A stretch of 64,000 nucleotides of DNA from Hyphomicrobiales bacterium (GTDB taxonomy: Bacteria > Pseudomonadota > Alphaproteobacteria > Rhizobiales > Phreatobacteraceae). The position numbers and the translations under genes were made by a program. The stretch is from assembly GCA_017304475.1 (NCBI GenBank), contig JAFKKV010000021.1:1-64000 (forward strand), written 5' to 3'. Below are positions 2,772 to 54,992 of the stretch, piece after piece (position 1 is the first letter of the stretch; every line of letters starts with the position of its first letter). The notes beneath the pieces were generated by a model that did not search any database, had not been told where the DNA came from, and saw only the letters and a list, made by a program, of their open reading frames with translations.

Positions 2772-3056
2772 GTCCCTCTATCGGTCGCAACTCGCCTGCC
2801 GTATCGTTGATTTCGCGGTGTCGCGGTTCTTGCTCTGCAACTCCTGGATCCCCTTCCCCTCGCTTCGCTCGGCCGGGGATGACGTCGTGGTTCTCGCGCG
2901 CGCCTGGGCCGACGAAGCCTTCCCGCCGGGGCGCCTCGGTCGGCTCGTCCTTTCCCGCGCGCGGCAGGTTTGCGTCAAATTGTGCCGCAAAGAGCTGCAA
3001 ATCGCTTAAAGGATGGGCAGAAGCGGGCGGTGAGCGCCCGTCCCAAGGCCCGCGCG
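2772..3056. other. Gap between array and MFS gene
   Basis: No gene was recognised in these 285 bases. A stretch at about 2847-2884 (CTGGATCCCCTTCCCCTCGC, then a CGGCCGGGGATGAC segment) can pair CCCC with GGGG and looks like a dispersed intergenic repeat, but only one copy is present in the window. The promoter of the following transporter gene should lie here; no convincing -35/-10 pair was picked. Confidence 0.4.
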
Positions 3057-4247
3057 ATGACCGACCAGTCGATTCCCTTGCGCCACGATGCCCAGGTCAT
3101 GAGCCTGATCAGCGCGGCGCATTTCTCCAGCCACTTCTTCCAGCTGGTTCTGCCGCCGCTGTTCCCGGTGCTGAAGGTGGCCTTCGGGGTGAGCTATACC
3201 GAGCTCGGCTTCGTCATGGCGGTGTTCTTCGCCGCGTCGGGCCTCGGCCAGGTGGCGGCCGGCTTCCTGGTCGACCGGTTCGGGCCGCAGCGCATCCTGC
3301 CGATCGGCATCGCGCTTCTGGCCGGCGGCATGCTGGTGGTCGGCCTCGTGCCCCATTACGGCGTGCTGCTGCCGGCGGCGGCCTTGTCGGGGCTCGGCAA
3401 CAGCGTGTTCCACCCGGCTGATTATTCCATCATCACCGCGCGCATCTCGCCGCAGCGGATCGGCCGGGCCTATAGCGCACATACCGTGATGGGCACGCTC
3501 GGCTGGGCGGCAGCTCCGGTCACCACGCTGGCGCTGGCCCAGCAGTTCGGCTGGCAGACCGCGCTCATCCAGCTCGGCCTTGCCGGCCTCGTGCTGGCGG
3601 CGATCGTGGCGCTCGGCCATCGCCAGCTCAAGGTCGCGCCGGCGCCGCGCCCGGCGCATCATGAGGCGGCGCCGGCCTGGCAGATGCTGCTGACGGGGCC
3701 GATCATCGCCTGCCTCGTCTATTTCACCTTGCTGGCCATCGCCCAGGCCGGTTCGCAGAGCTTCCTGCCGAGCCTGTTGCCGCTGACCCAGGGCATTTCG
3801 GCCGCCGCCGCCGTCACCGCGACGACCGTCTATCTGATCGGCAGCGCGCTCGGCTCGTTCTCGGGCGGTTTCCTGGCCGATCTCACCCCCAATCACGAGC
3901 GGGTCGTCGGCTTCGGGCTTGCCGCGGCGGCGCTGCTCAGCCTCGTGCTCGGCTTCGTCCATTTGCCCGGGCCGGCGCTGCTGGCGGTGACCGGGCTCGC
4001 CGGCTTCCTGACCGGCTCGACCATCCCCTCGCGCGACATGCTGGTGCGCGGCGCGGCGCCGGCCGGCGCGGTCGGCACCGTCTTCGGTTTCGTCTATTCC
4101 GGGCTCGATCTCGGCTCGGTGGTCGCCCCGGTCGCGATCGGCGCCTTCATCGACCATGGCGCGGCCGATCTCGCCTTCGTCTTCATCGCCTCGGCCCTGA
4201 TGATCACGGTGATCAGCGCACTGATCGTCAAGCGGATGCAGCGATAG
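3057..4247 (+). CDS. MFS transporter, fosmidomycin-resistance (Fsr)-like
   Basis: This 396-residue hydrophobic protein has about 12 predicted membrane helices and the N-terminal pattern SAAHFSSHFFQLVLPPLFP followed by GFLVDRFGP (motif A region, loop 2-3). It resembles the fosmidomycin resistance branch of the Major Facilitator Superfamily, proton-driven inner-membrane exporters. The ATG at 3057 (MTDQSIPLRHDAQVMSLIS) gives a normal length. An upstream in-frame start at 2970 would add 29 polar residues and is less likely. It is transcribed away from the CRISPR array and converges on the TctC gene, with a stem-loop between them. The substrate cannot be told from sequence. Confidence 0.85.
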   Translation: MTDQSIPLRHDAQVMSLISAAHFSSHFFQLVLPPLFPVLKVAFGVSYTELGFVMAVFFAASGLGQVAAGFLVDRFGPQRILPIGIALLAGGMLVVGLVPHYGVLLPAAALSGLGNSVFHPADYSIITARISPQRIGRAYSAHTVMGTLGWAAAPVTTLALAQQFGWQTALIQLGLAGLVLAAIVALGHRQLKVAPAPRPAHHEAAPAWQMLLTGPIIACLVYFTLLAIAQAGSQSFLPSLLPLTQGISAAAAVTATTVYLIGSALGSFSGGFLADLTPNHERVVGFGLAAAALLSLVLGFVHLPGPALLAVTGLAGFLTGSTIPSRDMLVRGAAPAGAVGTVFGFVYSGLDLGSVVAPVAIGAFIDHGAADLAFVFIASALMITVISALIVKRMQR

Positions 4248-10278: not shown

Positions 10279-13200
10279 ATGCTCGACGCGGGCGCATCTG
10301 ATCGAACGAAATCGCGCATCATTCTCGTCCACGGCACTTTCGCGGAGCTGCGGCCGGAGAGCCCGTCGCAAAAGCCGAGATGGTCGGCGCCCGATGGCCG
10401 GTTCGCCGGCGAACTCTCCGCCAGGGTCGCGAGCACCACGGGAGTTATCCCCGAGGTCGAGGAGTTTCGCTGGTCCGGGGCCAATTCCGAAGTGCAACGC
10501 CGCCTGGCCGGCAAGCTCCTGCTCAACCGCATCGAGCAATTGGAGGAGGAGGGCGGCAGCTATCATCTGATCGGCCACAGTCATGGCGGCTCGGTGATCT
10601 GGCATGCCCTGACCGCCTCGATGGCCGATGCCGGCCGCCGCAACGGCGCCGCCGCCGAGGCGCTGCCGGGCCTGCGGAGCTGGGCGACGGTCGGAACGCC
10701 CTTCCTCACCTTCGGGCCATCGAAACGCGAATTGTTCAGCGTGGCCCTGCTGCTCGCCGGCTTCCTGCTCTGGCTCGCCACCTGGTCCACCTGGATCCTG
10801 GATGCCGGATCGGTCATCGCTCAGGCGCCGCTGATCCTTCAGAATGCGGTGGACTGGGCGAACGGGACGACGAGCTACGCCTGGTACAAGCCGATCTGGC
10901 GTGAAGGGCCGATCATCATTCTCGGCGCGACGCTCGGCGCGCTGGTCTTCCTGGCGCTGAAGTTCCTGGGCTGGGGGCTCCAGCTACGGTTGCTGGCCGC
11001 GACCGCCACCCCGGCCTTGATCGCTTTCGCGGTCACGCTCGGCGTCGTCCTGGCGTCCTGGCAGGTGCCGTTCGTCGCCGCGTTGCACAAGAGCATAGCG
11101 GGCAAGATCGGCCTGGTCGTCCTGGCGTTGCTGATCGCGACGGTCGTTCTGGTCGTCAGCTTCCTCGTCGCATCGCTGGCGGTCCAGTTGCTGAACTGGT
11201 GGGACCGGCAGCAGCGCCGGCTGCGCGCGCAGGCGGCCTGCGCCGCCTATGGCGCGCGCTGGTATTCGCTGGTCCATCGCCAGGACGAGGCCGCCTCGGC
11301 CCTTGCCGCCTCGCTCTTGCCGGCGCCGGCCATTCGCCCGATCCAGCGCGACACCCATGGCATTCTGAACGACAAGGTTCTGCACGCGATCACGAGTCAG
11401 TTCACCAGGGCTCGTGACGAGGCCATCTGGGAGGGCCTGACCCAGAAGGTCCAGGGCGACGACATGGGCGGCTACGTGATCCGCCGCGTCGGCCTCGCGC
11501 CCATTGCCTTCGGGCAGGTCTGGCCGCCGCTGTCGGGCAGCGCCGACGCCAGCATGATGGCGCTGGCGAACACGGCCGCGGGCGCTTTCGCCGCGCAATT
11601 GCGCGATCGCTTCTCGACCAGCGGCAAGGATGGCGGGCACGATACGATCGACCAGATCGTCAAGGACCTGTCGTTCGGCGGTCTCGTCCACAACAGCTAT
11701 TTCTTCGACGACGAGGCGCGGACTGCCGTGCGCCAGGATGTCGTCGGCTGGCTCGCCGCGCACATTGTCCGATCGATGCCGGCGGCCGGCGACCCTGCGG
11801 CGCCACCTCCGCCATTGCACGGCGAACGGCGTGACGTCTCGGCTGCCTTGTCCGATTTCCGCCTCGCCAGCGAGAGCCGGTTCCGGGCTATCACGATCGC
11901 ACGGGCAACGGCGCTCGCCGTCGCCTTCGGTGCCCTGATGCTGGCGACCACGGCGGCCTTCGAGACCAGCGTGCGACCGCTGACGCGCGAGGCCCAGGTC
12001 GCGGAAACGATCGCGTCCTGGAGGCTGTCAGGGGCTTTCGCCACGGCCGACGCGCCGATGGTCGGGGCCTTTGTCGTCCGCCTGGCTGTGGCCGGGGAAC
12101 TTGGCAGCGCCGAGGCCGTGCGGGCGGTGTTTCGCACCATCCTCGAGCGCAATGCCCGGGCGGTCGCCGGCCAGCGACTGGCCTTCGCCTGGGGCCGCGA
12201 CGGCGATCTGGAGTCGGGACTGCGGGACCGGCTCGTTCGGCAAGTCCGGACCGAAATCCTCGGCCAGGATCCTTCGGATCCCAAGCCGCCGCGGGAGGCG
12301 CACCTTGCCCGCGCCAACCATCTGGTCACGCTGCACCTGCTGGCGGGGATCGTTTCCCGGCAAGGCCGGCTGGATGCCGCGCAGCTGAAGGACGCGAATA
12401 ACGCCTGGATGGCGCTGCACCAGATGTGCCGTGATGTCGATCTCGACGCGGTGGCGCATGTCTATCTGCCCGTGCTGGTGGCGGGGGGCGGCGAGACCGA
12501 GGCGGCCGATGTCCTGAGACGGGTGGCCATCCGGCGCGGCGGCCAGTGCGGGCAGCCGGAGGACACCGCTCCGAGCGAGACCGATCTCGCCTGGCAGCAG
12601 GCATTCCTGCTCGACCGCGCACTGGATGCCGTGTCCTGGAACCAGCCGGACCTCGCCGGCAAGCTTCTGGCGCTGGCGGGCAGCGATCCGTCGGAACCCG
12701 GGGCGTTGCTCGCAGCGCTCGACCGCACACGCGACGGCGCGCGCAGGCTGTGTACCGATCATATGCGGAACATGGCGGAATTGATGGGCTCGGCACCGCT
12801 GCCGCATCGCGCGCCGCATTGCTCGCTGGAACAGGTCCAGGCGGCGCCCGCGAACTGGGTCGAACAGGACGGCTGCGCAGCGCAAAGACAGGTCTCCGCG
12901 AAAAAGCTCTCCGATTACCGGCGCGACGGGAGCCGGCTGCGGTCGCTCCATGCCGACCTGGACGACGCCATGATGAACAGCTACCGGTTCTGCCGCGTCG
13001 AGCCGGCTTTCACGAGCGGCAATCTTCGGGCCTGCGCGGCGCAACTGGCCGCTCGCTGCGAAGAGGCCGGGGATGCCGCGCAGCGGCCGATCGACCTGGC
13101 TCTCATCCTGGTCGGAATGAGCCGTTTCGACGATGCGCTCAAGATCATCCAGCCGATCTTCCAAGGCTCGAGCCTGTGGCTCGACGATGCCGGCGACGTG

Positions 13201-43318: not shown

Positions 43319-44239
43319 TCAGCCGAGCCCGATCGAACGTTCCAGTTCGGTGAGGCCAAGGAACAGCCGCCGCATCTCGGTCAATCCGAATTCGGTCGGC
43401 GCTTGCGCCGGCTGGCGTTCGAACACTTCGCCGGCGCCGATCCGCTGCGCCATGAAGCGCTTGCCGTAGCAGAGGAGGGCCGGGATCGACCGGATCATGA
43501 AGACGATCAGCGGCAGCAGCTCCTTGTGCAGGCGTTCGGCTTCCGCCAGTGCCTCGGGCGTACCTTTACGGAACAGCTCGTAGATCCTGACCTGCACGGG
43601 CAGGCAGTCCGGCGCCGGAATGAGCCCGGCGGCGCCGGCGCGCAGCACCGAGAGATATTCGATGCCGCCATGGCCGCCGAATACGGCAAGCTTGCCTTCG
43701 GTCGCCGCCACCAGCGTTTCGGTATCGACCGCCGTGCCTTCGCCTTTCAGCACGGTGATGTTGCCGTGATTGCGGTTCAGCGCCGCCATGGCCGGGATCG
43801 ACAGCCAGACGTCGAGATTGAACGGATTGTGCTGGATCGCCACCGGGCAATCGAGCGCATCGGCGACGCTGCCGAAGAAGCGGACGAGGCCGGCCTCGCC
43901 ATCGTCGGGCCGTGGCGGCGGCTGCAGGATCACCCAGTCGGCACCGCGCGCCCTGGCCTCCCGGGCAAAGTCGGTCTGGGCCGCGACCGTCGTGCCGGCG
44001 ACCGTCACGGCATAGGGCAGGCGGCCGCCATTGACCTCGGCCACCAGCGCCGTGAGCTCCAGCCTCTCCTCGACCGAGAGCTTGTTCGCCTCGGTGACGA
44101 GGCCGAGCAGCATCAGGCCATGGGCGCCGGCGGCGATGCAATGCTCCACCTGGGCGCGCATGGCTTGCCGGTCGAACCGGCCGTCGGGGCCGAAAAATGC
44201 GTAGAGCACGGGATAGACGCCGGCAAAATGGGAGATCAA
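43319..44239 (-). CDS. DapA-family (N-acetylneuraminate lyase superfamily) aldolase, variant active site
   Basis: This 306-residue TIM-barrel protein has the Schiff-base lysine in NITVLKGEGTAVD. Two usual DapA features differ: the tyrosine of the YNxP motif is His (AIQHNPFN), and the GTTGE loop reads GLVTEANKLSVEER. It is therefore probably an aldolase or hydratase for another 2-oxo acid rather than a lysine-pathway enzyme. TTG at 44239 is taken as start since GGAGG lies 5 bases upstream; the ORF can be read 5 codons further up. It is divergent from the luciferase-like monooxygenase, with a LysR-type dyad between. Confidence 0.85.
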   Translation of the reverse strand: MISHFAGVYPVLYAFFGPDGRFDRQAMRAQVEHCIAAGAHGLMLLGLVTEANKLSVEERLELTALVAEVNGGRLPYAVTVAGTTVAAQTDFAREARARGADWVILQPPPRPDDGEAGLVRFFGSVADALDCPVAIQHNPFNLDVWLSIPAMAALNRNHGNITVLKGEGTAVDTETLVAATEGKLAVFGGHGGIEYLSVLRAGAAGLIPAPDCLPVQVRIYELFRKGTPEALAEAERLHKELLPLIVFMIRSIPALLCYGKRFMAQRIGAGEVFERQPAQAPTEFGLTEMRRLFLGLTELERSIGLG

Positions 44240-44311
44240 GCAGGCCTCCTTCAAATGTGCAGCCTCGCGCCGGCCGGTCCGGCCCTGCCTGATGCCGACT
44301 GAACGATCCGG

Positions 44312-44327
44312 TTATAGCACCTATAGG
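44312..44327. promoter_or_regulatory. LysR-type dyad, site A (TTATAGCACCTATAGG)
   Basis: A perfect T-N11-A dyad (TATAG-CAC-CTATA) lies between the divergent DapA-like and LLM monooxygenase genes, 72 bases before the monooxygenase ATG. The same 16-bp motif occurs at 50021-50036 (opposite strand) and 51952-51967, each before another operon of the cluster. Confidence 0.75.
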
Positions 44328-44398
44328 ATCTCTCTCTTAGACCTGGGTGCCGCCGCATCGTAGCAATCATCGCACGGCCACCGTTTGAGGAAAGCGCG

Positions 44399-45484
44399 AT
44401 GAAATTCGGTCTGATGACGCAGATCCAGATGCCTCGCCCCTGGACCGAGACGACCGAGCGCAACGCCTATTGGGATGGTCTTGCCCAGGGCGTCGCCGCC
44501 GAGGCCGCCGGCTTCGAATATTTCTGGATCACTGAGCAGCACTTCCTGATCGAGATCGGTCACGCGCCGGCCTCCGACATGTTTCTGGCGGCGCTGAGCC
44601 AGCGCACCAAGACCCTGCGCATGGGCCTCGGCGTCGTGCTCCTGCCGCTGCACAATCCCTTCAGTGTCGCCGAGCGGGTCGCCACCCTCGACATCCTCAG
44701 CAATGGCCGGGTCGAGTTCGGCACCGGCCGCGGCACGACCTCCTATATCCTCGAGGGCATGGGGGTGGACCCGGCCAAGGGGCGCGAACTCGGCAAGGAA
44801 TCGCTCGAGGCGATCCTGAAAATGTATGAGGGCGAGTTCTTCACCGGCTATAAGGGCCAGCATTTCGACCTGCCGGCCCGCCACGTCACGCCGCGCCCGA
44901 TCCAGCGTCCGCATCCGCCGCTGTGGATCGCCGCCACCAATCTGGAGACCTACGAGTTCGCCGGCCGCCAGGGCTTCGGCGTCATCGGCGTGACCCGCAA
45001 CAGCAAGGAAGACACCAAGGCGGCGGTGCAGCGCTATCGTGCGGCGGCGACCGGCAGCGACCGGTCGAGCCAGATCGGCAAGGTGGTCAACAACCAGGTC
45101 GCCGTGTTCGGCATTGCCTGCTGTCACGAAAATGATCGGGTCGGCCGCGAACTCGCCTGCTCGGCGGCACGCTGGTACTACGGCGACAACGACGCCGAAC
45201 TGAACCATATGCGCTTCACCACGGCCGGTGGCGTCGCCAAGGTGCGCGAGCGCATCTCGGGTTTCAGCAATGACGACCTGATCGAAAACGGCATGGCACT
45301 CGGCGGTGACGCGGACACCTTGTCCCGCCAGGTCGAGAAATGGGCCAATTGCGGGCTCGACCAGATGATCTTCATGATCCAGGCCGGCAACACCAATCAT
45401 GACCAGGTAATGCGCTCGATCGAGCTGATCGGCGAGAAGGTGATCCCGCGCTTCGCCGACAAGGATTATGCCATCGCGGTCTGA
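44399..45484 (+). CDS. Luciferase-like (LLM) flavin-dependent monooxygenase
   Basis: This 361-residue protein has the bacterial-luciferase TIM-barrel pattern: MKFGLMTQIQMPRPW, AGFEYFWITEQHF, LRMGLGVVLLPLHNPFSVAE and the FMN-phosphate region VEFGTGRGT. These enzymes use reduced flavin from a separate reductase; an NADPH-dependent FMN reductase gene lies in the same cluster at 49266-49919 behind the same regulatory dyad. It likely opens or hydroxylates a heterocycle, or cleaves a C-N or C-S bond. The M24 gene follows after 35 bases. Confidence 0.9.
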   Translation: MKFGLMTQIQMPRPWTETTERNAYWDGLAQGVAAEAAGFEYFWITEQHFLIEIGHAPASDMFLAALSQRTKTLRMGLGVVLLPLHNPFSVAERVATLDILSNGRVEFGTGRGTTSYILEGMGVDPAKGRELGKESLEAILKMYEGEFFTGYKGQHFDLPARHVTPRPIQRPHPPLWIAATNLETYEFAGRQGFGVIGVTRNSKEDTKAAVQRYRAAATGSDRSSQIGKVVNNQVAVFGIACCHENDRVGRELACSAARWYYGDNDAELNHMRFTTAGGVAKVRERISGFSNDDLIENGMALGGDADTLSRQVEKWANCGLDQMIFMIQAGNTNHDQVMRSIELIGEKVIPRFADKDYAIAV

Positions 45485-45519
45485 GCCCGCTTGTTCGCGA
45501 CACGAGAGCCCGGCCGCCC

Positions 45520-46674
45520 ATGTCGAAATCCGACTTTCCGCCCGAGGAGTTCGACGATCGGCTGGCGCGCGTGCGTCAGGCGATGGAGAAGGCCGAACTT
45601 GACTGGCTCCTGGTCTTCCATCCCGTGTCGATCCATTGGCTGACCGGCTCGGACGCCAAGGGTTACCAGGCTTTCCAGTGCCTGCTGGTGCCGGTCTCGG
45701 GACCGAGCCCGGTGATGTTCACCCGGCTGTCCGAGCAGGCCGAGTTTCTCGACGACGCGCTGACTGGAGAATTGGTCTGCTGGGGCGGCCCGGAGCCGGA
45801 GGATCCGCTCGCGGCCTTCGCATCCCTGGTCACCCGGCTCGGCCTCTCAGGCACCCGCGTCGGCATGGAAGTGCCTGCCTTCTATCTGCATCCGCACCAC
45901 TACCTCGCGGTCAAGGCGATGCTCGGCGAGGCGCTGGTCGCCGAGCCGAGCAATCTCGTTCACGACCTGAAGCTCAGGAAGTCGGCGCGCGAGCTCGTTC
46001 TGATCCGCAAGGCCGCGGCCATCGCAGACCTGACGGTCGACGCCTTGGCCGCCGCGCTGCGTCCGGGCCGGAGCGAGCTGGAGGTCGCCGCGGCGATCTA
46101 TCAGACCTTGCTCGCCGCCGGCGGCGGGCAACCGGTGACGCCGGTCAATCTGGTATCGGGTCCGCGAGCCGGTTTCAGCCACGGCGCTCCGACCGAAAGG
46201 CTGCTGGAGCCCGGCGATTTCGGCAATGCCGAATATTGCGTGCCCTATCGGCGCTATTCGGTGTCGATAGGGCGCCAGTTCGCGATCGGCCGGCCTTCGG
46301 CGCGCATGCAGGAGCTCCATGACGTCGTGCGCCGGGCAAGCGACGCGGCGATCGCCGAAATCCGGGCTGGCGTGCCAGCCACCGTTCCGCACGAGGCGGC
46401 CAAGCGCGTCATCGCGCAAGCAGGCCTCGACCACGCACGCGTGCACACCTCGGGTTATGGTGTCGCGCCGGGTTTTGCCCCGGCGACGGGCGAACCGATC
46501 CATCTCTTCGGCGGCAGTTCCTATCGCCTCGAAGCCGGCATGGTGCTGTCCGTCTGCCCGCCGGTCTTCCTGGCCGAGGAACGTCTCGGCGCGCGCCTGG
46601 TCGACAATGTCCTGGTCACCGAGACAGGAGCCGAGCGGCTGTGCCGCGCGCCGCGCGACCTCATCGTCGTCTGA
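45520..46674 (+). CDS. M24-family hydrolase (creatinase / ectoine hydrolase-like), paralogue 1
   Basis: This 384-residue pita-bread protein has a creatinase N-domain (LLVFHPVSIHWLTGSDAKGYQ) and M24 C-domain. The metal ligands of classical aminopeptidases appear lost: the two Asp positions read Glu and Ser (FGNAEYC; RYSVSIGRQ), the GHG histidine is Tyr (TSGYGVAPG), the EPG glutamate is Cys (LSVCPPVF), and the final Glu is Asp/Val-type (ARLVDNVLVTE). The substrate-side His in FSHGAPTER remains, as in creatinase, which is metal-free. It is therefore probably an amidohydrolase for a small imported compound. It is 35 bases after the monooxygenase gene. Confidence 0.85.
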   Translation: MSKSDFPPEEFDDRLARVRQAMEKAELDWLLVFHPVSIHWLTGSDAKGYQAFQCLLVPVSGPSPVMFTRLSEQAEFLDDALTGELVCWGGPEPEDPLAAFASLVTRLGLSGTRVGMEVPAFYLHPHHYLAVKAMLGEALVAEPSNLVHDLKLRKSARELVLIRKAAAIADLTVDALAAALRPGRSELEVAAAIYQTLLAAGGGQPVTPVNLVSGPRAGFSHGAPTERLLEPGDFGNAEYCVPYRRYSVSIGRQFAIGRPSARMQELHDVVRRASDAAIAEIRAGVPATVPHEAAKRVIAQAGLDHARVHTSGYGVAPGFAPATGEPIHLFGGSSYRLEAGMVLSVCPPVFLAEERLGARLVDNVLVTETGAERLCRAPRDLIVV

Positions 46675-46680
46675 GCGTCT

Positions 46681-47619
46681 TCACTCCGCCGGCAGCTCGC
46701 CCGACCAGACGCCGGACTCCACGAGATCGCGCACCACCTCCTTGACCGTCTCGGCCAGCTTGCCGATCAGCGTGTGCTGAATGTCGGTGCGCGGCACGTT
46801 CTGGCAGGTGAGCATGGCGAAAGGCCAATAGGCCGGCGGGTCGAAGGAGTGGATCTCCAGCTCGCCACGGCTCAATTCGTCTTCGATGGCGCCACGGGTG
46901 AGCAGGCTGAAGCCGACGCCCTGGCGCAGCATGGCGCGGGTGATGGTGGTGTCGTCCACCTCCACCTTGGCGGAGAGCGAAATGCCGCGGGCTGCGGTCC
47001 ATTTGTCGAGCAGCCGGCGCGAGGCATTGGGTCGGCTCGGCAGGACCAGCGGCAATTTGGCCAGATCCTCGGTGCGGATGCGCCCGGCCGAGGGGCCGAG
47101 GCTGCCGGCACGGCCGACCAGATAGACCTCTTCATTGAGCAGCGGGGTCACCTCGAAACCGCGCTGCGGCACCGGATCGTGCAGGCAGGCGAGATCGACC
47201 TGACCGCGCACCAGCCATTCGTGGATATAGCCGCTGAAGCCGCCGACGATCTTCAGGAAGACATGCGGATAGGCCTCGCCGAAGCGCTCGACCAGCGGCG
47301 GCGCGATGAAATGGCCGGCGGCCGGCGGCACGGCGAAGGAAATCACGCCGGACAGGCCGGCATGGCCGCTGCGGATATCGGCCTTGGTCTGTTCCAGCTG
47401 GCGCAGCAGCAGCTGGCTGCGTTCGAGCAGCAGCTTGCCGGCCTCCGTGAGCGTCACGCCATGACCGTGACGCTTGAATACGGGGCGGCCGAGTTCATCC
47501 TCGAGATTGCGGATGGTCCGGCTGACCGCCGGCTGCGAAATGCGCAGCAGCTCCGAGCCACGGCTGTAGCTGCCGCTTTCGGCGACCGTCTGGAAATAGC
47601 GGAGCGCTCTGATGTCCAA
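46681..47619 (-). CDS. LysR-family transcriptional regulator
   Basis: This 312-residue protein has the LysR winged HTH (DIRALRYFQTVAESGSYSRG, then ISQPAVSRTIRNLEDELG) and the periplasmic-binding-like effector domain (GVISFAVPPAAGHFIAPPLV onward). TTG at 47619 is the start. It is convergent with the M24-1 gene 7 bases away and on the same strand as the M20 gene behind it. It is the only LysR gene in the window, and three T-N11-A dyads mark the promoters of the surrounding catabolic operons, so it is the likely pathway regulator. Confidence 0.92.
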   Translation of the reverse strand: MDIRALRYFQTVAESGSYSRGSELLRISQPAVSRTIRNLEDELGRPVFKRHGHGVTLTEAGKLLLERSQLLLRQLEQTKADIRSGHAGLSGVISFAVPPAAGHFIAPPLVERFGEAYPHVFLKIVGGFSGYIHEWLVRGQVDLACLHDPVPQRGFEVTPLLNEEVYLVGRAGSLGPSAGRIRTEDLAKLPLVLPSRPNASRRLLDKWTAARGISLSAKVEVDDTTITRAMLRQGVGFSLLTRGAIEDELSRGELEIHSFDPPAYWPFAMLTCQNVPRTDIQHTLIGKLAETVKEVVRDLVESGVWSGELPAE

Positions 47620-47695
47620 GTCCTGCGTCCCCTCAGGTCATTTCAGGCATAGCACGACGGATGGCCATGCCGGAATGTGAGGAGCGGGCCGGGCT

Positions 47696-48892
47696 TCATG
47701 CCGTGCAGTCCTCGATCAGGCGCGCCATGAAGCGTTCGCCGGCTTCGAATTCCGAGATCTCGATGAATTCGTCGGCCTGATGGGCCTGGGCGATGTCGCC
47801 GGGGCCGCAGACCACCGTCGACCAGCCGGGTTCCTGGAACTGGCCGGCCTCGGTGCCGTAGGACACGACATGCACGCCGTTGTCGCCGGTCAGCCGCCGG
47901 GCGAGCCGCTCGGCCGCGCCCTCGGTTTCCGGCTTCAGGCCGGGCACGAAGGCGCGCGGCACCACGGCGACGCCGGAATGCGGGGCGATGCGCTTCATCT
48001 CGGGCTCGATGACATCGCGGATATAGGCGAGATAGCGGTCGCGGAAATCGACCGGGTCCTCGCTCGGAATGGCACGGATATCGGTGACGAAGACGCAGTC
48101 CGATGCCACGACATTGCCGGCCGTGCCGCCGTGGATCGTGCCGCAGTGAAGCGTCGTATAGGGCGGCTCGAACGGGTTGGCGGGGTCAGCCTTGCGGGCA
48201 TTCTCGGCCATGGTGTCGGCGAGCCAGGTGATCAGGCGGGCCGCGACCATGACGGCGCTGACGCCCTGGTCGATGCGGCTGGAATGCACGGTGTGGCCGG
48301 TCACTTCCGTGCGGAACGACAGCGAACCCTTGTGGCCGGTCACCACCTGCATCCGCGTCGGTTCGCCGACGATGATGGCGGCCGGTGTCGGCACGGTCTT
48401 GACCATCTCGGCCACCATCAGGGGCGCGCCGAGGCAGCCGACCTCCTCGTCATAGGACAGGGCGATATGGATCGGCCGGGTCAGCTTCGCCCGCACCATG
48501 GCCGGCACCGCCGCCAGCACCAATGCGTCGAAGCCCTTCATGTCGCAGGTGCCGCGGCCATAGAGCCGGCCGTTGCGCTCGGTCAGCGTCCAGGGACTGC
48601 TGGTCCAGGCCTGGCCTTCTACCGGCACCACGTCGGTATGGCCCGACAGCACCACGCCGCCGGCCACCTCCGGCCCGATGGTTGCGTAGAGATTGGCCTT
48701 CGTGCCGTCCGGGCTCGGCACCAGCCGGCTCGCGACGCCGTGGCTTGCCAGATAGTCCTTGATGAAGCCGATGCAGTCGAGATTGGAGACGCTCGACACC
48801 GTGGGGAAACCGACCAGCCGGTCGAGCATGGCGCGCGCGGTCAGCGTAACGGGGGCAGGGGACATCAGGGCATCCGCAGGGGTCAAGGGCAT
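47696..48892 (-). CDS. M20-family deacylase (ArgE / acetylornithine deacetylase-like)
   Basis: This 398-residue protein has the M20 two-zinc site: VVLSGHTDVVPVEG (His, Asp), GRGTCDMKGFDA (bridging Asp), SYDEEVGCLGAP (general base Glu and ligand Glu) and the C-terminal His in QAHQADEFI. The dimerisation domain has TGHTVHSSRIDQGVSA. It hydrolyses an N-acyl amide; ArgE-type enzymes act on N-acetylornithine. It is third of a leftward operon behind the FMN reductase and ABM genes. In this context it probably removes an acyl group from an intermediate. ATG 48892 is chosen; ATG 48865 is also possible. Confidence 0.9.
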   Translation of the reverse strand: MPLTPADALMSPAPVTLTARAMLDRLVGFPTVSSVSNLDCIGFIKDYLASHGVASRLVPSPDGTKANLYATIGPEVAGGVVLSGHTDVVPVEGQAWTSSPWTLTERNGRLYGRGTCDMKGFDALVLAAVPAMVRAKLTRPIHIALSYDEEVGCLGAPLMVAEMVKTVPTPAAIIVGEPTRMQVVTGHKGSLSFRTEVTGHTVHSSRIDQGVSAVMVAARLITWLADTMAENARKADPANPFEPPYTTLHCGTIHGGTAGNVVASDCVFVTDIRAIPSEDPVDFRDRYLAYIRDVIEPEMKRIAPHSGVAVVPRAFVPGLKPETEGAAERLARRLTGDNGVHVVSYGTEAGQFQEPGWSTVVCGPGDIAQAHQADEFIEISEFEAGERFMARLIEDCTA

Positions 48893-48933
48893 GGTCGGGA
48901 CGCATCCCGAGCCAGGGCTCCGGCGATGCAGGC

Positions 48934-49260
48934 TCATGTCGCCGGGCGGAACGATTCCAGCAGGCCCTCGATATTCGCCACTTTGACCTCGCAAAGCGAG
49001 ACCGTTTGCGAGCCGACGATGAATGGCTTCAATGCAGCGGAGAAGGTCTCGGCATAGGCCGGCGACGCCTCCCAGGCCTGCACGCTCTCCATGTCGCGCC
49101 ACAGCGTGATGGTGAACATGCTTTCGGCGTCGTTGACGTCCCGGCTCACCAGGCGGCCGAGCAATCCCGGCGTCTCGACCGCCATCAGCTCGCGGTATTT
49201 CTGCTCGATCGAGCCCCAGGCACCGGGATAGATCTTGCCCCAATAGATGCGAACGAACAT
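48934..49260 (-). CDS. Antibiotic biosynthesis monooxygenase (ABM)-like domain protein
   Basis: This 108-residue protein has the ferredoxin-like ABM pattern (MFVRIYWGKIYPGAWGSIEQ, NDAESMFTITLWRDMESVQA). Small ABM proteins act as cofactorless monooxygenases, heme-degrading proteins or stress proteins. It lies 5 bases after the FMN reductase and 41 before the M20 gene, all one operon. The role in the pathway is unknown. Confidence 0.8.
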   Translation of the reverse strand: MFVRIYWGKIYPGAWGSIEQKYRELMAVETPGLLGRLVSRDVNDAESMFTITLWRDMESVQAWEASPAYAETFSAALKPFIVGSQTVSLCEVKVANIEGLLESFRPAT

Positions 49261-49265
49261 GGGCG

Positions 49266-49919
49266 TCATCCTCTCGACAGCGACAGGCGGGTCGGTTCGT
49301 CCGGGCCGGCCATCGGCGCATGCGGCGGCGCGGTGACCGCGACGCGGGAACCGATTTTCATGCGTGCGAACTCGACGACCTGCTGGCCGACCGCCTGCAG
49401 CTGGAACTTCGACGACAGGTCCAGGCACTCGCCGGCATCGTCGAACAGGCGGGTCGAGGTGTTGAGCATGGCGGCCAGCGGCGTCGGCCAGCCGCGCAGC
49501 GCATGGGCGATGCCGCGCAGCGTCGCAAGCGTCTGGCCGCCCGCCTGCCAGCCGCCGGCGCAGACGATCAAGCCGACCGCCAGTCCGTCGAAATAGACCC
49601 GTTCGTCGGTGCGCAGGTCCTCGGTATAGTCGAGGGCGTTCTTGACCAGGCCCGACAAGGTGCCGTGATAGGCGGGCGATGCGACGATCACGCCATGGCA
49701 GCGGCGGAAGGCTTCGACCAGGCGGGCGGCCTCGGCGGAACGCTCGGTTTCGCCCGGATTGTACATGGGCAGCATCAGCTCGGGACCGCTGATCAGCAGC
49801 GTGTCGGCGCCGGCCTCGGCTGCCGCCCTGAGGCTCAAGGCCAGGGCGCGCTCGGTCGACGAGCCGGCGCGCGGCGTGCCGCCGATGCCGAGAATGAGGG
49901 GGCGTGGGGCCTGGTGCAT
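49266..49919 (-). CDS. NADPH-dependent FMN reductase (flavodoxin-like)
   Basis: This 217-residue protein has the flavodoxin-fold FMN-reductase pattern: LILGIGGTPRAGSSTERALA (phosphate-binding loop), LPMYNPGETERSAEAARLVE and VIVASPAYHGTLSGLVKNALDY. It reduces FMN with NADPH, plausibly to feed the luciferase-like monooxygenase encoded 4 kb away behind the same type of dyad. It is the first gene of a leftward operon (reductase, ABM, M20), and site B lies about 100 bases upstream of its ATG. Confidence 0.9.
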   Translation of the reverse strand: MHQAPRPLILGIGGTPRAGSSTERALALSLRAAAEAGADTLLISGPELMLPMYNPGETERSAEAARLVEAFRRCHGVIVASPAYHGTLSGLVKNALDYTEDLRTDERVYFDGLAVGLIVCAGGWQAGGQTLATLRGIAHALRGWPTPLAAMLNTSTRLFDDAGECLDLSSKFQLQAVGQQVVEFARMKIGSRVAVTAPPHAPMAGPDEPTRLSLSRG

Positions 49920-50020
49920 GGACGTCCTCGCACGGGCTTCGATCGTGCCGCCCGGGTGCCCCAGGGCAGCTGCATCGCTATACTGTGCTGACGGCCGGCC
50001 TATACGTCCAAGGCAAAGCA

Positions 50021-50036
50021 CCTATAGCTGTTATAA
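50021..50036. promoter_or_regulatory. LysR-type dyad, site B (TTATAACAGCTATAGG on minus strand)
   Basis: On the minus strand this reads TTATAACAGCTATAGG, aligning with sites A and C at 13 or more of 16 positions and keeping T-N11-A. It lies 102 bases upstream of the leftward FMN-reductase operon. Confidence 0.7.
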
Positions 50037-50181
50037 TTGAAATGGCGGAAGCTGAATGCCGTGCGGGCGTCAACCATTGCCCCCGCCAGCGACGGCCCAG
50101 GCGGGCCCGCAGGCGTCCTGCCGCCACGGCGGCGGCGCTGCGTCTGCCCATTTCGTCCGCCATTGCCGGTCGGCGTCTTCC

Positions 50182-50582
50182 TCAATCGGAAGAGGCAGGA
50201 ATGTCGTAGCAAATGAAGGCGAGCTTGTTGCCGTCGAGATCACGCACATAGGCGCCGTAGAACGAGCCGCCATAACGTGGCCTTCGGCCGGGGGCACCGT
50301 CGTCGCTGCCGCCATGGCTCAGGGCCAGTCCGTGGAGACGGTCGATCGTCGCGGGCGTGTCGACCAGGAAGGCCGTCATCGCGCCGTTGCCGGCGCTTGC
50401 GGGCCGGCCGTCGAACGGATAGCCGACGGAAAAGCGCGTGACGGATGCGTCACCCGTCTTGCCCCACGAGGCCGATGTCTGATCGAGGAAACACTGGTCG
50501 AGGCCCATTGCGGCAAAGAGCGGCCGTAAAAGGCGACGGCGCGTGGGAGATCGTCGACGCCGACGGTGGTGTAGCTGATCAT
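50182..50582 (-). pseudogene. Frameshifted VOC (glyoxalase/bleomycin resistance)-family gene
   Basis: The N-terminus (MISYTTVGVDDLPRAVAFYG) is in one frame from 50582, and the remainder (LFAAMGLDQCFLDQTSASWG through YGAYVRDLDGNKLAFICYD) is in the other, joining near 50519-50525. Adding one base there restores a single 134-residue VOC protein. VOC proteins are small metal-dependent lyases or dioxygenases. Either the gene is broken or the read has a one-base error. Confidence 0.75.
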
Positions 50583-50690
50583 GTGTCCTGCTCGCGCCCG
50601 CAAACCTCGGCCGCAGACGATGGTAGCGCGGAGACAAGGATCGGTGAACCACCGATGAGGCCGCCCGAGCGATTGGCGGGCCGCCGGTGA

Positions 50691-51848
50691 TCAGCCGGCC
50701 ATGATCAGTCCGCGCGGCTGGCGCGACAGCAGTTCGGCGCCGGTTTCCGTCACCAGCACATTGTCGATCAGCCGGACACCGAGGCCCTCTTCGCCGATGA
50801 AGATCGGCGGCTCGACCGAGACCACCATGCCGGCGCGCAGCGTATAGGTGGCGCCGCCGAACATGTTGACCGGCTCGCCCCAGGACGGCGGGAAACCGGG
50901 CGCCAGGCCGTATCCCGACGTGTGGATCCGGTAGCGGTCCAGGCCCTCCCGGCCGATCACGCGCTTGGCGGCCTCGTGCGGCACGAGCGCCGGCACGCCG
51001 TCGCGAATCTCGGCGATCAAGGCATCGGCCGCCTCCAGCGCGATGGCGTGCAATTCGTTCATGCGCGGTGTCGGCGTGCCCATGCAGAACTGCCGTCCGA
51101 GCGTCGCCGTGTAACGCTTGAAGGCGGCGCCATATTCGACATTGCCGAAATCGCCCTGCCGCAGCCGCCGCTCGGTCGGCGCACCATGGCTGAAGCAGGA
51201 GCGCTCGCCGGAAACCAGGTTCAAGGTGCTCGCCGGCAAGCCGCTGCCGCGCTTCAGCAATGCGGCATAAACCTCGCCGGCAATGGCGAGCTCGGTCGTT
51301 CCCTCGTTCAGATGGGCGACGAAGACGTCGAGCGTCTCGTCGGCGATCCGCGCCGACTGCCTGACATAAGCGAGTTCAGCCGGCGACTTCACCATTTTGA
51401 GGTCGTGGACCAGGTTGCTCGGCTCCGCCTTCAAGGCCGCGCCGAGGAAAGCCTTCACGCACAGATAGTGATGGGGATGCAGATAATAGGCCGGCACCTC
51501 CATGCCGACGCGCGCGCGTTTCAGCCCGAGCCGGCCGGCGATCCGCTCGAACACCGCGATCGGGTCCTCGGGTTCCGCGCCGCCCCAGGTTTCGAGCTGG
51601 TCGACCAGCGCGTCCTGCTCGAATTCATGGCGCTCCGATTCGCGGGTCAGCATCACGACCGGCCGGTCTTCGGCAGCAACGACCAGACATTGGAAAGCCT
51701 GATAGCTCTTGGCGTCCGAGCCGGTGAGCCAGTGGATCGAGACCGGATGAAACAATATCATCCAGTCGAGTTCGGCTGCGGCGATGGCCTGGCGTACCCG
51801 CTGCAGGCGCACGGCGAATTCGGCGCTGGAGAAATCGCTTTTCGACAT
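50691..51848 (-). CDS. M24-family hydrolase (creatinase / ectoine hydrolase-like), paralogue 2
   Basis: This 385-residue paralogue of the gene at 45520 shares MSKSDF start, FHPVSIHWLTGSDAKSYQAF, GMEVPAYYLHPHHYL, NLVHDLK and FSHGAPTER. As in the paralogue the metal-ligand positions are altered (FGNVEYGAAF; KRYTATLGRQ; TSGYGLAPG; VRLIDNVLVTE), but the EPG-like Glu is kept here (SVEPPIF). The pair may act on successive or related substrates. It is divergent from the ABC transporter operon with site C in between. Confidence 0.85.
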   Translation of the reverse strand: MSKSDFSSAEFAVRLQRVRQAIAAAELDWMILFHPVSIHWLTGSDAKSYQAFQCLVVAAEDRPVVMLTRESERHEFEQDALVDQLETWGGAEPEDPIAVFERIAGRLGLKRARVGMEVPAYYLHPHHYLCVKAFLGAALKAEPSNLVHDLKMVKSPAELAYVRQSARIADETLDVFVAHLNEGTTELAIAGEVYAALLKRGSGLPASTLNLVSGERSCFSHGAPTERRLRQGDFGNVEYGAAFKRYTATLGRQFCMGTPTPRMNELHAIALEAADALIAEIRDGVPALVPHEAAKRVIGREGLDRYRIHTSGYGLAPGFPPSWGEPVNMFGGATYTLRAGMVVSVEPPIFIGEEGLGVRLIDNVLVTETGAELLSRQPRGLIMAG

Positions 51849-51951
51849 GGTGGCGCGGTCCTCGGGGTCAGGCGCGCATCCAGCGCCGCGGGCATCTCAG
51901 GATGGCGCTGACCCTAGCGACCGGCCGGGCGGCCCGTCTAAAGCCTTTAGA

Positions 51952-51967
51952 TTATAGCAGTTATAGC
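51952..51967. promoter_or_regulatory. LysR-type dyad, site C (TTATAGCAGTTATAGC)
   Basis: The dyad lies between M24 paralogue 2 (ATG 51848, leftward) and the ABC binding protein (ATG 52121, rightward). Directly to its left is a second perfect palindrome, CTAAAG-C-CTTTAG (51938-51950). The pair could be recognition and activation half-sites of a LysR regulator. Confidence 0.75.
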
Positions 51968-52120: not shown

Positions 52121-53251
52121 ATGTCGGGAAAAATTGGCTCCAGCAACGGCCTCGCTGCCGGTCATCCTGCCGACCTGACGGGGGCCGAGGCTGGTCTGAC
52201 CCGGCGCAGCCTGGCGCTCGGCGCGGCTTCGCTCACCATGATGTTGACGGCACCGGCCGTGCACGCCCAGGCGCGGCCCAAGGTCCGGCTATGGGGCGCC
52301 TCGGCAACGGTCGAGGCCTATCATGGCTTCCTGTTCCTCGGAAATCCGCTCGGCTTCTTCAAGGACGACGGTGTCGACGTCGAATTCGGCACCGCCGCCG
52401 GGTCGGCCGCGACGCTGCAGCTGATCGCCGCCGGCCAGGTGCAGATGGGCTATATCGGCATGGACGTGCTGATCCTGGCCAAGGCGCGCAATCCGCAACT
52501 GCCGGTCACGGCGGTCTATCTGCAGGATCGCGGCAATATCTACGAGATCGTCGTTCCCGAGGACAGCGGGATCAAGACCGTGGCCGATCTCAAGGACAAG
52601 ACCATCGGCGTCGCCAATCTCGCTTCCGGCGCCATTCCTTCGCTGCGGGCGACGCTGACCGATGCCGGGCTCGACCCCAATTCGTCGGTCGGGCTGATCC
52701 CGGTCGGCAATGGCGCGCAGGCAGCCGCCGCGCTGAGAGCCGGACGCATCCAGGCGCTCTCCCTGTTTCGCGCCCAGCACGCCTTGATCGAGACGCTCGG
52801 CTTCAAGTTCCGCCGTTTCACCCGTGACGCGCCGAGCGCGGTGATCGCGGTCAACACTGCCTTCCTGAAGGATAACCGCGAGGCCGTCATCAAGACCCTG
52901 CGCGGCGTCGCCAAATCCTCGATTTTCGCCCAGGTCAATCCGGCGGCGACCGTGCGCCAGTTCTGGGGCCTGTTCGGCAAGCCGCAGGGCCTGAGCGAGG
53001 ACGAGGCGATGAAGCGGTCCGAATATATTCTGAGTTCCACCGCCGAGCTGTGGAAGGACTACAAGGACAAGTCCGTGCCCTGGGGCGACATGACCGCGCG
53101 CCAATGGGAGGACATGCAGAAGTTCCTGATCGAGCAGAAGCTGCAGGACAAGCCGGTGGCGATCGAGGCGCTGTTCACCAACGAACTCACCGCCGAGGTC
53201 AACAAGTTCGACCAGGATGCGGTGGTGGCCGTGGCGAGAGCCGCCCGCTGA
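52121..53251 (+). CDS. ABC substrate-binding protein, NitT/TauT (SsuA/NMT1-like) family
   Basis: This 376-residue protein has a twin-arginine-like signal (GLTRRSLALGAASLTMML, cleavage near VHA-QA) and the NMT1/SsuA pattern: YHGFLFLGNPLGFFKDDGVD, AAGSAATLQLIAAGQVQMGY, and KTVADLKDKTIGVANLASGA. It binds small organosulfonates, nitrate, pyrimidine precursors or related compounds. The ATG follows GATAGGGGAAG. It is the first gene of a three-gene ABC operon; the LysR-type site C lies 154 bases upstream. Confidence 0.9.
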   Translation: MSGKIGSSNGLAAGHPADLTGAEAGLTRRSLALGAASLTMMLTAPAVHAQARPKVRLWGASATVEAYHGFLFLGNPLGFFKDDGVDVEFGTAAGSAATLQLIAAGQVQMGYIGMDVLILAKARNPQLPVTAVYLQDRGNIYEIVVPEDSGIKTVADLKDKTIGVANLASGAIPSLRATLTDAGLDPNSSVGLIPVGNGAQAAAALRAGRIQALSLFRAQHALIETLGFKFRRFTRDAPSAVIAVNTAFLKDNREAVIKTLRGVAKSSIFAQVNPAATVRQFWGLFGKPQGLSEDEAMKRSEYILSSTAELWKDYKDKSVPWGDMTARQWEDMQKFLIEQKLQDKPVAIEALFTNELTAEVNKFDQDAVVAVARAAR

Positions 53252-53317: not shown

Positions 53318-54172
53318 ATGGCAAGCGCGATCGCAAGTGAGCCGGTGACGCGGGCGACGGCAGTTCAGACGCCCGGCCCGGTCAGCGCGCTTTCAGTGCA
53401 GAATGTCAGCATGGTGTTCAACCGCGGCGCCGCGGCGGTCCATGCCCTCGATCAGGTGTCGATGGAGGTGCGCGACGGCGAGTTCGTCGCCATTGTCGGT
53501 CCTTCCGGCTGCGGCAAGTCGACCCTGATCAAGCTCGTCTCGGGCCTGCGCCCGCCGAGTGCCGGGCGGCTCGCGGTCCATGGCCGGCAGGTGATGAAGC
53601 CACGCGGCGACGTCGGCATCGTGTTTCAGAGCCCGGTCCTGCTGCCGTGGCGAAGCATTCTCGACAATGTCATGCTGCCGATCGACGTGTTGAAGCAGGA
53701 TCAGGCCGCCGGCCGCGAGCGAGCCCACGAACTGCTCAAGCTGGTCGGCCTCGGTGGTTTCGAGAAGGCCTATCCCAACGAATTGTCGGGCGGCATGCAG
53801 CAGCGAGCCGCGATCGCGCGGGCGCTCGTCTACGACGCGCCGCTGCTTCTGATGGACGAGCCTTTCGGCGCGCTCGATGCGCTGACCCGTGAGCAGATGA
53901 ATTCCGAGCTGCAGCGGATCTGGAGCGCCAGCGGCAAGACGGTGATCTTCATCACCCATTCGATCCCGGAGGCGGTTTTCCTGGCCGACCGGATCGTCGT
54001 CATGTCGCCGCGACCGGGCCGGGTCCTGAAGATCATCGACAATCCCATCCCGCGCATGCGCACGCTGGACGACATGCTGCGTCCCGAATTCGGTGCGCTG
54101 GTGCGAGAAATTCGCGGGCTGTTGGGAAGCTATGTTGCCGGGGAAAGCAATGGATCAAGTTCTGACTGGTGA
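53318..54172 (+). CDS. ABC ATPase, SsuB/TauB type
   Basis: This 284-residue ATPase has Walker A IVGPSGCGKST, Q-loop VFQSPVLLPWRSILDN, signature ELSGGMQQRAAIARAL, Walker B LLLMDEPFGALD and switch ITHSIPEA, the pattern of nitrate/sulfonate/taurine importers. It starts 66 bases after the binding protein gene; its stop overlaps the permease start by 23 bases. Confidence 0.94.
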   Translation: MASAIASEPVTRATAVQTPGPVSALSVQNVSMVFNRGAAAVHALDQVSMEVRDGEFVAIVGPSGCGKSTLIKLVSGLRPPSAGRLAVHGRQVMKPRGDVGIVFQSPVLLPWRSILDNVMLPIDVLKQDQAAGRERAHELLKLVGLGGFEKAYPNELSGGMQQRAAIARALVYDAPLLLMDEPFGALDALTREQMNSELQRIWSASGKTVIFITHSIPEAVFLADRIVVMSPRPGRVLKIIDNPIPRMRTLDDMLRPEFGALVREIRGLLGSYVAGESNGSSSDW

Positions 54173-54992
54173 CAAAGCCGCCGAGGCCGGCGTCGCGATG
54201 GCCGATGGCCAGCCCAATCGGCGTCTGTGGGCCCGTTTCGGCATGCCGCTCACGGTGTTCGTCGTGCTGATGGGCACCTGGGAGGCGCTGATCCGCCTGC
54301 TCGACGTGCCCGGCTTCCTGGTTCCGGCGCCCTCGGCCATCGTCCAGGCGCTCTGGTCCGGGCTTGCCACGGGCCTCTATTTCTCCCATGCCGCCGTCAC
54401 CATGTTCGAGGCCGTCGTCGGCTTCGGCATAGGCAGCCTGCTCGGCCTTGCGCTTGGCACCGTGATCGTCGTGTTCCCCACCATGGAACGCATCGTCTAC
54501 CCTTATGTGGTCGCCCTGCAGACCGTACCGAAGGTCGCTATCGCGCCGCTCATGGTGGTCTGGTTCGGCTTCGGCATCACCTCCAAGATCCTGGTGGTCG
54601 CGCTCGTGTCGCTGTTCCCGGTGCTGGTCAATGTCATGGCCGGCCTCAGGTCGATCGACCAGGACCGCCTCGATCTGCTCGGCGCGCTCGCCGCGTCGCG
54701 CTGGCAGGTGTTCCGCTATGTCCGCTTTCCGAATGCCCTGCCGTTCATTTTCGCCGGCCTCAACACGGCCATCGTGCTGGCGGTGATCGGCGCCATCGTC
54801 GCCGAATTCGTCGGCTCGAATTACGGCCTCGGCTTCCTCATCCTCCAGGCCAATTATCAGCTCGACATCGCGGGTGCCTTCTCGCTTTTCGTCGTGCTCT
54901 CGGTCATGGGCGTGGCACTGCACGGCTCGCTGAAATGGCTCGAGCGGCGCTGCGTATTCTGGATCAACATCGAGGCACGCAACGGCATCTGA
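54150..54992 (+). CDS. ABC permease, SsuC/TauC type
   Basis: This 280-residue protein has about six helices and the family pattern WEALIRLLDVPGFLVPAPSA, YPYVVALQTVPKVAIAPLMV and the EAA loop DLLGALAASRWQVFRYVRFP. It forms the homodimeric channel of the importer. ATG 54150 with GGGGAAAGC is used; the frame extends upstream to 54093. It completes the cluster's dedicated uptake system. Confidence 0.93.
   Translation: MDQVLTGDKAAEAGVAMADGQPNRRLWARFGMPLTVFVVLMGTWEALIRLLDVPGFLVPAPSAIVQALWSGLATGLYFSHAAVTMFEAVVGFGIGSLLGLALGTVIVVFPTMERIVYPYVVALQTVPKVAIAPLMVVWFGFGITSKILVVALVSLFPVLVNVMAGLRSIDQDRLDLLGALAASRWQVFRYVRFPNALPFIFAGLNTAIVLAVIGAIVAEFVGSNYGLGFLILQANYQLDIAGAFSLFVVLSVMGVALHGSLKWLERRCVFWINIEARNGI

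Follow-up and report, generated by a model that had tools for sequence, protein, structure and literature searches.

LysR proteins usually bind DNA at two places, the regulatory site around −65 and the activation site around −35, as stated in an account of p-nitrophenol catabolism under PnpR and PnpM (PMC5603801). In a different catabolic setting, the ectoine hydrolase DoeA is an M24-family protein similar to creatinase, according to PMC3187862. Here we analysed a 64-kb stretch (64,000 nucleotides, hereafter the window) of contig JAFKKV010000021.1 from a Hyphomicrobiales bacterium, in which a LysR-type gene lies among genes for a luciferase-like flavin monooxygenase (LLM), a flavin mononucleotide (FMN) reductase, two M24-fold hydrolases (M24a and M24b), an M20 deacylase, an ABM-domain protein and an NMT1-type ABC importer. 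A first-pass annotation had proposed that three copies of a 16-bp T-N11-A dyad unite three promoters of this cluster into a LysR regulon. We find one longer element at these promoters, and this element and the LysR gene probably constitute a local LysR-type regulon that controls an orphan catabolic cluster.

The degenerate (IUPAC) pattern used for the 16-mer was derived from the three sites themselves, and exact matches there are thus expected by construction. Exact matches in the window occurred only at 44312-44327 (plus strand), 50021-50036 (minus strand) and 51952-51967 (plus strand), where the sites had first been reported. With up to three mismatches the window gave five matches (one overlapping site 2) against 0.33 expected, and none of 100 dinucleotide shuffles reached five. 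In the complete genome (8,382,456 bases in 79 contigs) the only exact matches were again the three window sites, with no place at one mismatch and five at two; up to three mismatches there were 74 in total, against 962 for a reversed-pattern control. The exact motif is therefore found nowhere else in 8.38 Mb and is not scattered at unrelated genes. The clustering of the sites within 7.7 kb and the absence of near copies elsewhere do not follow from the construction of the pattern. A 31-mer pattern gave seven matches in the same genome (20 for its reversed control): the three known sites exactly, and four places with three mismatches, one of which is the plus reading of site 3. This search returned no further regulon member below three mismatches in the genome.

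When aligned with related loci, the 16-mer is seen to be only half of an ungapped 32-bp element, NYAT-N7-AT-N7-ATGCC-TTDGAC, which ends in a −35-like hexamer. The three copies in the window are:

44312..44343, plus strand: regulatory element 1, towards the LLM gene, ending in TTAGAC (−35-like), with a degenerate ATGCC block
50005..50036, minus strand: regulatory element 2, towards the FMN reductase-ABM-M20 genes and perhaps LysR too, ending in TTGGAC
51935..51966, minus strand: regulatory element 3, towards M24b, ending in TTAGAC, with a degenerate ATGCC block

The elements are thus oriented towards the LLM monooxygenase, the FMN reductase and M24b. Element 3 sits in the intergenic region from which M24b and the importer diverge, and the plus-strand 16-mer at 51952-51967 is its dyad read on the opposite strand. 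The proposal that three operon-head promoters share a specific element holds, with the amendment that site 3 faces M24b, its importer-side reading being weaker. In a congener, G207, element 1 is kept with one change, and elements 2 and 3 are identical.

A scan with the LLM protein identified 21 related loci (58-76% identity; 19 full-length, 2 partial), here given L numbers, and their upstream regions were compared, L048 having no LLM upstream region. In 11 loci the comparison showed a gap-free block that terminates in TTGGAC or a close variant of it. This block begins 25 bases before the hexamer in all 11 of these relatives and at the three window sites (site 3 on the minus strand). We aligned 23 sites, three each from the window and G207 and 17 from relatives. 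The invariant columns were AT (3-4), AT (12-13), TT (26-27) and GAC (29-31), and ATGCC (columns 21-25) was kept in 17 to 20 of the 23 sites per column, a conservation somewhat inflated by selection because the first sites, at LLM promoters, were chosen by eye and the later ones by matrix. The T-N11-A frame (columns 2 and 14) is indeed present in all three window sites, as had been noted, but it fails as the unifying feature, any single register being found in at most 8 of the 23 sites. We therefore rejected it as the shared motif, which affects the motif claim and not the LysR family assignment.

A matrix was then built solely from the LLM promoters of the 11 relatives, leaving the window unused, and about 128,000 sub-windows of the stretch were ranked with it. 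The three sites took the top three places: site 2 was first with 41.9 bits, site 1 second with 19.3 bits, and site 3 followed on the minus strand with 16.7 bits, against 6.0 bits for its plus reading towards the importer. The next other place scored 0.2 bits. In a leave-one-out analysis, the held-out site ranked first in its own locus in 9 of 11 cases and second in two, where it was beaten only by same-cluster sites, before the M24b operon in L031 and before the FMN reductase operon in L047. Further sites were taken from the six best places of each locus. Those above 8 bits lay before M24b in L031, L043 and L044, before FMN reductase in L046 and L047, and before a DUF2390 open reading frame (ORF) plus M24b in L034; the reverse-strand reading of its own LLM site was also among the best places in L031. 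L047 carries an extra element-like site of 17.3 bits at 3581 (minus strand), ∼6 kb left of LLM.

The repeats could be a mere shared promoter type, a −35 hexamer with upstream AT-rich blocks and no specific regulator. The −35-like hexamer is among the most conserved columns, and by eye a hexamer also stands before LLM in relatives that have no LysR ortholog (TTGGAC in L041 and L042, ATGGAC in L040, CTAGAC in L045), as such a promoter type would predict. These same four loci, however, have neither the AT-N7-AT and ATGCC parts nor the LysR ortholog, and with the first 18 columns alone, which exclude the hexamer, the three window sites still ranked top three, site 3 in the plus register. We also searched 12 genomes, those of the 11 relatives and G207, with a pattern that differs from the 31-mer. 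There were 14 matches in 10 genomes (one for the reversed control), 13 of them at the cluster, two of these being one L031 site matched on each strand; the sole off-cluster match was in G207, with three mismatches. Two genomes, G403 and G404, had no match with this pattern, although the matrix detects their sites. A general promoter type is on this evidence improbable, and a regulator-specific element is the reading we retain.

The candidate regulator lies within the cluster:

46681..47619, minus strand: LysR-type regulator, the proposed reader of the element on the basis of co-occurrence (Pfam PF00126 and PF03466)

The protein carries both LysR domains, PF00126 (HTH_1) at 7.6e-22 and PF03466 (LysR_substrate) at 2.9e-35, and so belongs to the family; the gene is present where it had been placed. 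We searched for its orthologs at a threshold of 1e-40 in 21 genomes: G000, G207 and the genomes behind 19 of the 21 loci. The excluded loci were L048, an LLM fragment without its start, and L050, which is partial and from the same isolate as L042; no element was found in the available DNA of either. LysR matches were found in 13 of the 21 genomes, exactly the 13 that bear the element, with best matches of 53-100% identity, and the 8 element-less genomes gave no LysR match at 1e-40. Three new genomes came from a held-out draw. In G536 the element (39.5 bits) and an ortholog (59%) are both present, G630 has neither, and G528 has no element and only LysR proteins at 36-38%, which we counted as paralogs because paralogs in the window's own genome reach 41%. 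Other held-out loci added no genome: L138, L139 and L141 repeat parts of L051, L038 and L041 exactly, and L144 is a second LLM, without element, in the genome of L141. With the element judged in the fetched loci, it and the LysR ortholog (at least 53% identity) thus agree in 24 of 24 genomes, 14 with both and 10 with neither. The chance of this co-occurrence is 5.1e-7 if kinship is ignored; for the statistics, each row took its element label as LysR label too, the two having been found identical in the genome searches. On the LLM tree the element state changes five times, and four of the changes are forced by supported branches.

Gene order is consistent with this association. In 7 of the 11 relatives (L034, L035, L036, L037, L039, L043 and L044) the element separates LysR from a divergently oriented LLM. 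LysR adjoins an M24 gene in the genomes of L038, L046 and L047, and in L031 it lies between M24a and M20, the same as in the window. Since neither element nor ortholog was found without the other in any of the 24 genomes, the window LysR is very probably the reader of the element. G404 (L085, L093) holds two LysR orthologs, at 62% and 56%, on different contigs, one of them beside an M24 gene.

The element might instead be read by another regulator, such as one of the AsnC/Lrp type found in ectoine clusters, with LysR just travelling with the cluster. L047 has an AsnC/Lrp-type gene at 12188-12742 (plus strand), between M24a and M20, which recalls doeX of the ectoine clusters, and a related ORF occupies the matching place in L046 (8252-8767); DoeX is AsnC/Lrp-like (PMC3187862). 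The family recurs in these two loci only, however, a Pfam scan of ten window proteins found no such regulator but LysR, and LysR is present in all 14 element-bearing genomes besides being divergent across the element in the seven relatives. A reader other than LysR is thus very improbable, and LysR remains our preferred candidate.

The genes around the elements are:

43319..44254, minus strand: DapA-like aldolase (Pfam PF00701), a neighbour that is probably not a core regulon member
44399..45484, plus strand: LLM, luciferase-like flavin monooxygenase (Pfam PF00296), luciferase fold
45520..46674, plus strand: M24a, M24-fold hydrolase predicted to be without most metal ligands (Pfam PF00557, PF01321), with Cys where M24b has Glu
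47696..48865, minus strand: M20 deacylase of the acetylornithine deacetylase subfamily (TIGR01892, NF005710), start chosen within a longer ORF
48934..49302, minus strand: ABM-domain small protein (Pfam PF03992), start approximate
49266..49919, minus strand: NADPH-dependent FMN reductase (Pfam PF03358), azoreductase/YhdA-like in the PDB, start chosen within the ORF
50691..51848, minus strand: M24b, M24-fold hydrolase predicted to be without most metal ligands, nearest fold the ectoine hydrolase DoeA
52121..53251, plus strand: NMT1/THI5-type substrate-binding protein (Pfam PF09084), start chosen within the ORF
53318..54172, plus strand: ABC transporter ATPase, taurine/sulfonate-like but scoring under every cut-off shown
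54093..54992, plus strand: ABC transporter permease, SsuC-like but scoring under the cut-off, start approximate

Pfam and NCBIfam profile matches bear out the families originally named. Synteny in the relatives suggests a core of LLM, M24b, the NMT1-type importer and LysR, and an extended set of M24a, M20, ABM and FMN reductase. M24b is present in 14 of the 21 loci and the importer binding protein in 11, several loci ending at contig borders. In six compact clusters (L034, L036, L037, L039, L043, L044) the importer genes come immediately after LLM on the downstream side of the element, and the importer beside LLM in L031 is also of the NMT1 class, though not orthologous. The extended set is complete in the window, G207, L031, L046 and L047, and L049 has M24a only. 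In L047 the genes that follow the importer in its operon encode an aminotransferase, an HpcH/HpaI aldolase and a second M24 protein, with LysR next; L046 has an ORF related to this aminotransferase, together with an M24 gene and LysR, and L049 has ORFs related to the aminotransferase and aldolase of L047. Two other loci carry a different neighbour: an arginase-family gene is divergent from LLM at 2079-3215 (minus strand) in L041, a relative without LysR, with a related ORF in L042, and might point to a guanidino or amidine compound as substrate. In the window, a short ORF at 50182-50652 (minus strand) is glyoxalase/VOC-like by eye in its C-terminal half, has no Pfam match at 0.001 and looks like a gene remnant; the segment 50053-50690 is absent in G207.

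The DapA-like aldolase, previously counted as a pathway member, does not share this recurrence. The G207 cluster proteins are 90-98% identical to those of the window, but the DapA-like gene is missing from the matching place, window segment 43267-44293 being replaced by ∼140 bases, either by an apparent gain in this strain or by a loss in G207. In a draw of 385 genomes from the class, a DapA relative (E up to 1e-50) was found in 27 and a close LLM (E up to 1e-110) in 7. Three genomes had both, the window's own, G536 and G630, and only in the first do the two share a contig; in the others they are on different contigs (assemblies of 350 and 180 contigs). We therefore rejected DapA as a core member on its absence from the G207 cluster, the rest of G207 not having been searched for DapA. 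An aldolase step in the pathway is still possible, because L047 has the HpcH/HpaI aldolase in its cluster and L049 the related ORFs.

The LLM model (mean predicted local distance difference test score, pLDDT, 81.2) has the luciferase fold, with an Agrobacterium monooxygenase and RslO1 as best structural matches at 23% identity and no close match among PDB sequences. An order-wide search found LLM relatives in 19 of 397 genomes, all at 33-36% besides the window's own genome and G207, and a plasmid search for an annotated copy returned five records, with LLM relatives at 33-36% only. The M20 protein passes TIGR01892 (425 bits, cut-off 297.7) and NF005710 (509.8, cut-off 412). The M24b model (mean pLDDT 91.5) has DoeA (6twk_A) as first Foldseek match, at E 2.2e-33 and a template modelling (TM) score of 0.88, practically tied with the dipeptidase PepE (4ege; E 3.3e-33, TM 0.88). 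M24b and DoeA have KRYxA and PPxWGE stretches in common. Both M24 proteins nevertheless fail the DoeA models, with 115.5 (M24a) and 128.7 (M24b) against 613 for TIGR02993 and 149.8 and 132.3 against 575 for NF038259.

The five metal-ligand positions of the M24 fold, which we take to be Asp, Asp, His, Glu and Glu, were placed on a prolidase alignment. All 24 M24a and M24b rows have Glu at the position of the first Asp and a substitution at that of the second Asp, and the last Glu is replaced in all 23 rows that cover it; the other Glu is Cys in 6 of 6 M24a rows and Glu in 16 of 18 M24b rows (Val in L121, cut in L034). By this alignment both proteins have lost most metal ligands and do not have the ligand set of an M24 metallopeptidase.

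A real regulon might also serve sulfonate-sulfur scavenging, with an SsuABC-like importer, an LLM oxygenase and an FMN reductase. The importer proteins score best or near best on Ssu/Tau models, below the cut-offs, and LLM does sit with an FMN reductase. Both enzymes, however, are far under the relevant cut-offs, LLM with 45 against 510 (NF001939) and 41.9 against 518.2 (TIGR03565) on alkanesulfonate monooxygenase models, and the reductase with 24.5 against 164.05 on the SsuE model; to our knowledge, known sulfonate pathways have no place for M24 and M20 hydrolases. We consider sulfonate use unlikely and return to a nitrogen compound below.

Several observations weigh against a LysR-controlled pathway as set out here. 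The ATGCC block is missing from window sites 1 and 3. With columns 1-25, which exclude the −35 hexamer, site 2 ranks first and is followed by an unrelated place (61228) and then by site 1, while site 3 comes seventh. Matches to a −10 box at the elements are poor (2 to 4 of 6), which is expected of activator-dependent promoters and equally of a wrong −35 guess. The ortholog cut-off was fixed after the matches had been seen (the G528 LysR proteins at 36-38%), element absence was judged in the fetched loci of ∼4 to 21 kb each, and L049, counted as element-less, has the best match of that group, 10.6 bits, inside an ORF. Independent pairs agree in 4 of 4 cases (p 0.125), four pairs being too few for a sign test to reach significance. 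Finally, just 3 of the 21 loci (L031, L046, L047) retain M24a, M20, ABM and FMN reductase together, so the pathway is not uniform.

We propose that LysR would bind the 32-bp element before each operon, the two AT-centred half-sites, 9 bp apart, forming the regulatory site and the third block (ATGCC at best), adjoining the −35-like hexamer, the activation site. Provided that TTDGAC is the −35 box, this layout would match that of regulatory and activation sites. LysR would aid RNA polymerase at weak promoters in response to an inducer, probably either the compound taken up or an early product of it. The genes switched on would be the NMT1-type ABC importer (presumably from site 3), the two-component flavin monooxygenase of LLM and FMN reductase, the two M24-fold hydrolases of a metal-free creatinase/ectoine-hydrolase kind, and the ArgE-like M20 deacylase. 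Uptake of the compound would then most likely be followed by its oxygenation, hydrolytic ring opening and deacylation of the product. Such control logic is ordinary; local LysR regulons are common.

The pathway proposal draws on the gene families and the analogy with DoeA. The substrate is most likely a small nitrogen heterocycle or a cyclic amidine or amide, judging by analogy, and the earlier suggestion of an N-acylated or cyclic-amide compound is a reasonable guess because the M24 proteins have lost most ligands and M24b resembles the ectoine hydrolase. The binding protein weakly matches pyrimidine-binding proteins, among them a formyl-aminopyrimidine-binding protein (3ix1, E 1.3e-7). More tentatively, and with doubt somewhat greater than confidence, the cluster may represent an undescribed inducible alphaproteobacterial pathway, in which an LLM two-component oxygenase and a diverged, metal-free, ectoine-hydrolase-like M24 pair, with Glu in one protein and Cys in the other at a former ligand position, open an N-heterocycle taken up by a pyrimidine-type importer, under LysR on an AT-N7-AT-N7-ATGCC-TTDGAC element joined to the −35 box. 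No description of the cluster was found in a literature search that covered open-licence papers only, which is weak evidence of novelty. The candidate pathway occurs in Methylobacteriaceae, Salinarimonadaceae, Roseobacteraceae, Roseomonadaceae and Acetobacteraceae. The first-pass annotation is thus borne out in one element at three promoters and a LysR gene as its very probable reader, and not in T-N11-A or DapA. With the doubtful DapA set aside, element and regulator together mark the genes of an orphan catabolic pathway and would offer a ready reporter for the inducer, which could in turn lead to the substrate of these M24-fold proteins, in which few of the peptidase metal ligands remain.

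Compared with PnpR/PnpM (PMC5603801), the locus is alike in having a LysR gene beside a catabolic cluster, in 7 of 11 relatives oriented divergently to the first enzyme gene, and, if the hexamer is the −35 box, an upstream site with a second part at −35; the conserved core is AT-N7-AT plus ATGCC-TTDGAC and not T-N11-A. With the doe/eut ectoine degradation cluster of Halomonas elongata (PMC3187862) it shares a creatinase-like M24-family hydrolase and a deacylase; L047 further has an AsnC-type regulator and an aminotransferase in common with that cluster, and L046 has ORFs related to these. It differs in the added oxygenase and FMN reductase, in the LysR regulator, in a deacylase that is M20 and not the M14-type DoeB, and in M24 proteins far below the DoeA models. 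The SsuABCDE sulfonate systems likewise combine an SsuABC-like importer, an LLM oxygenase and an FMN reductase, whereas in the present cluster the LLM and reductase are far under the cut-offs and hydrolases are present.

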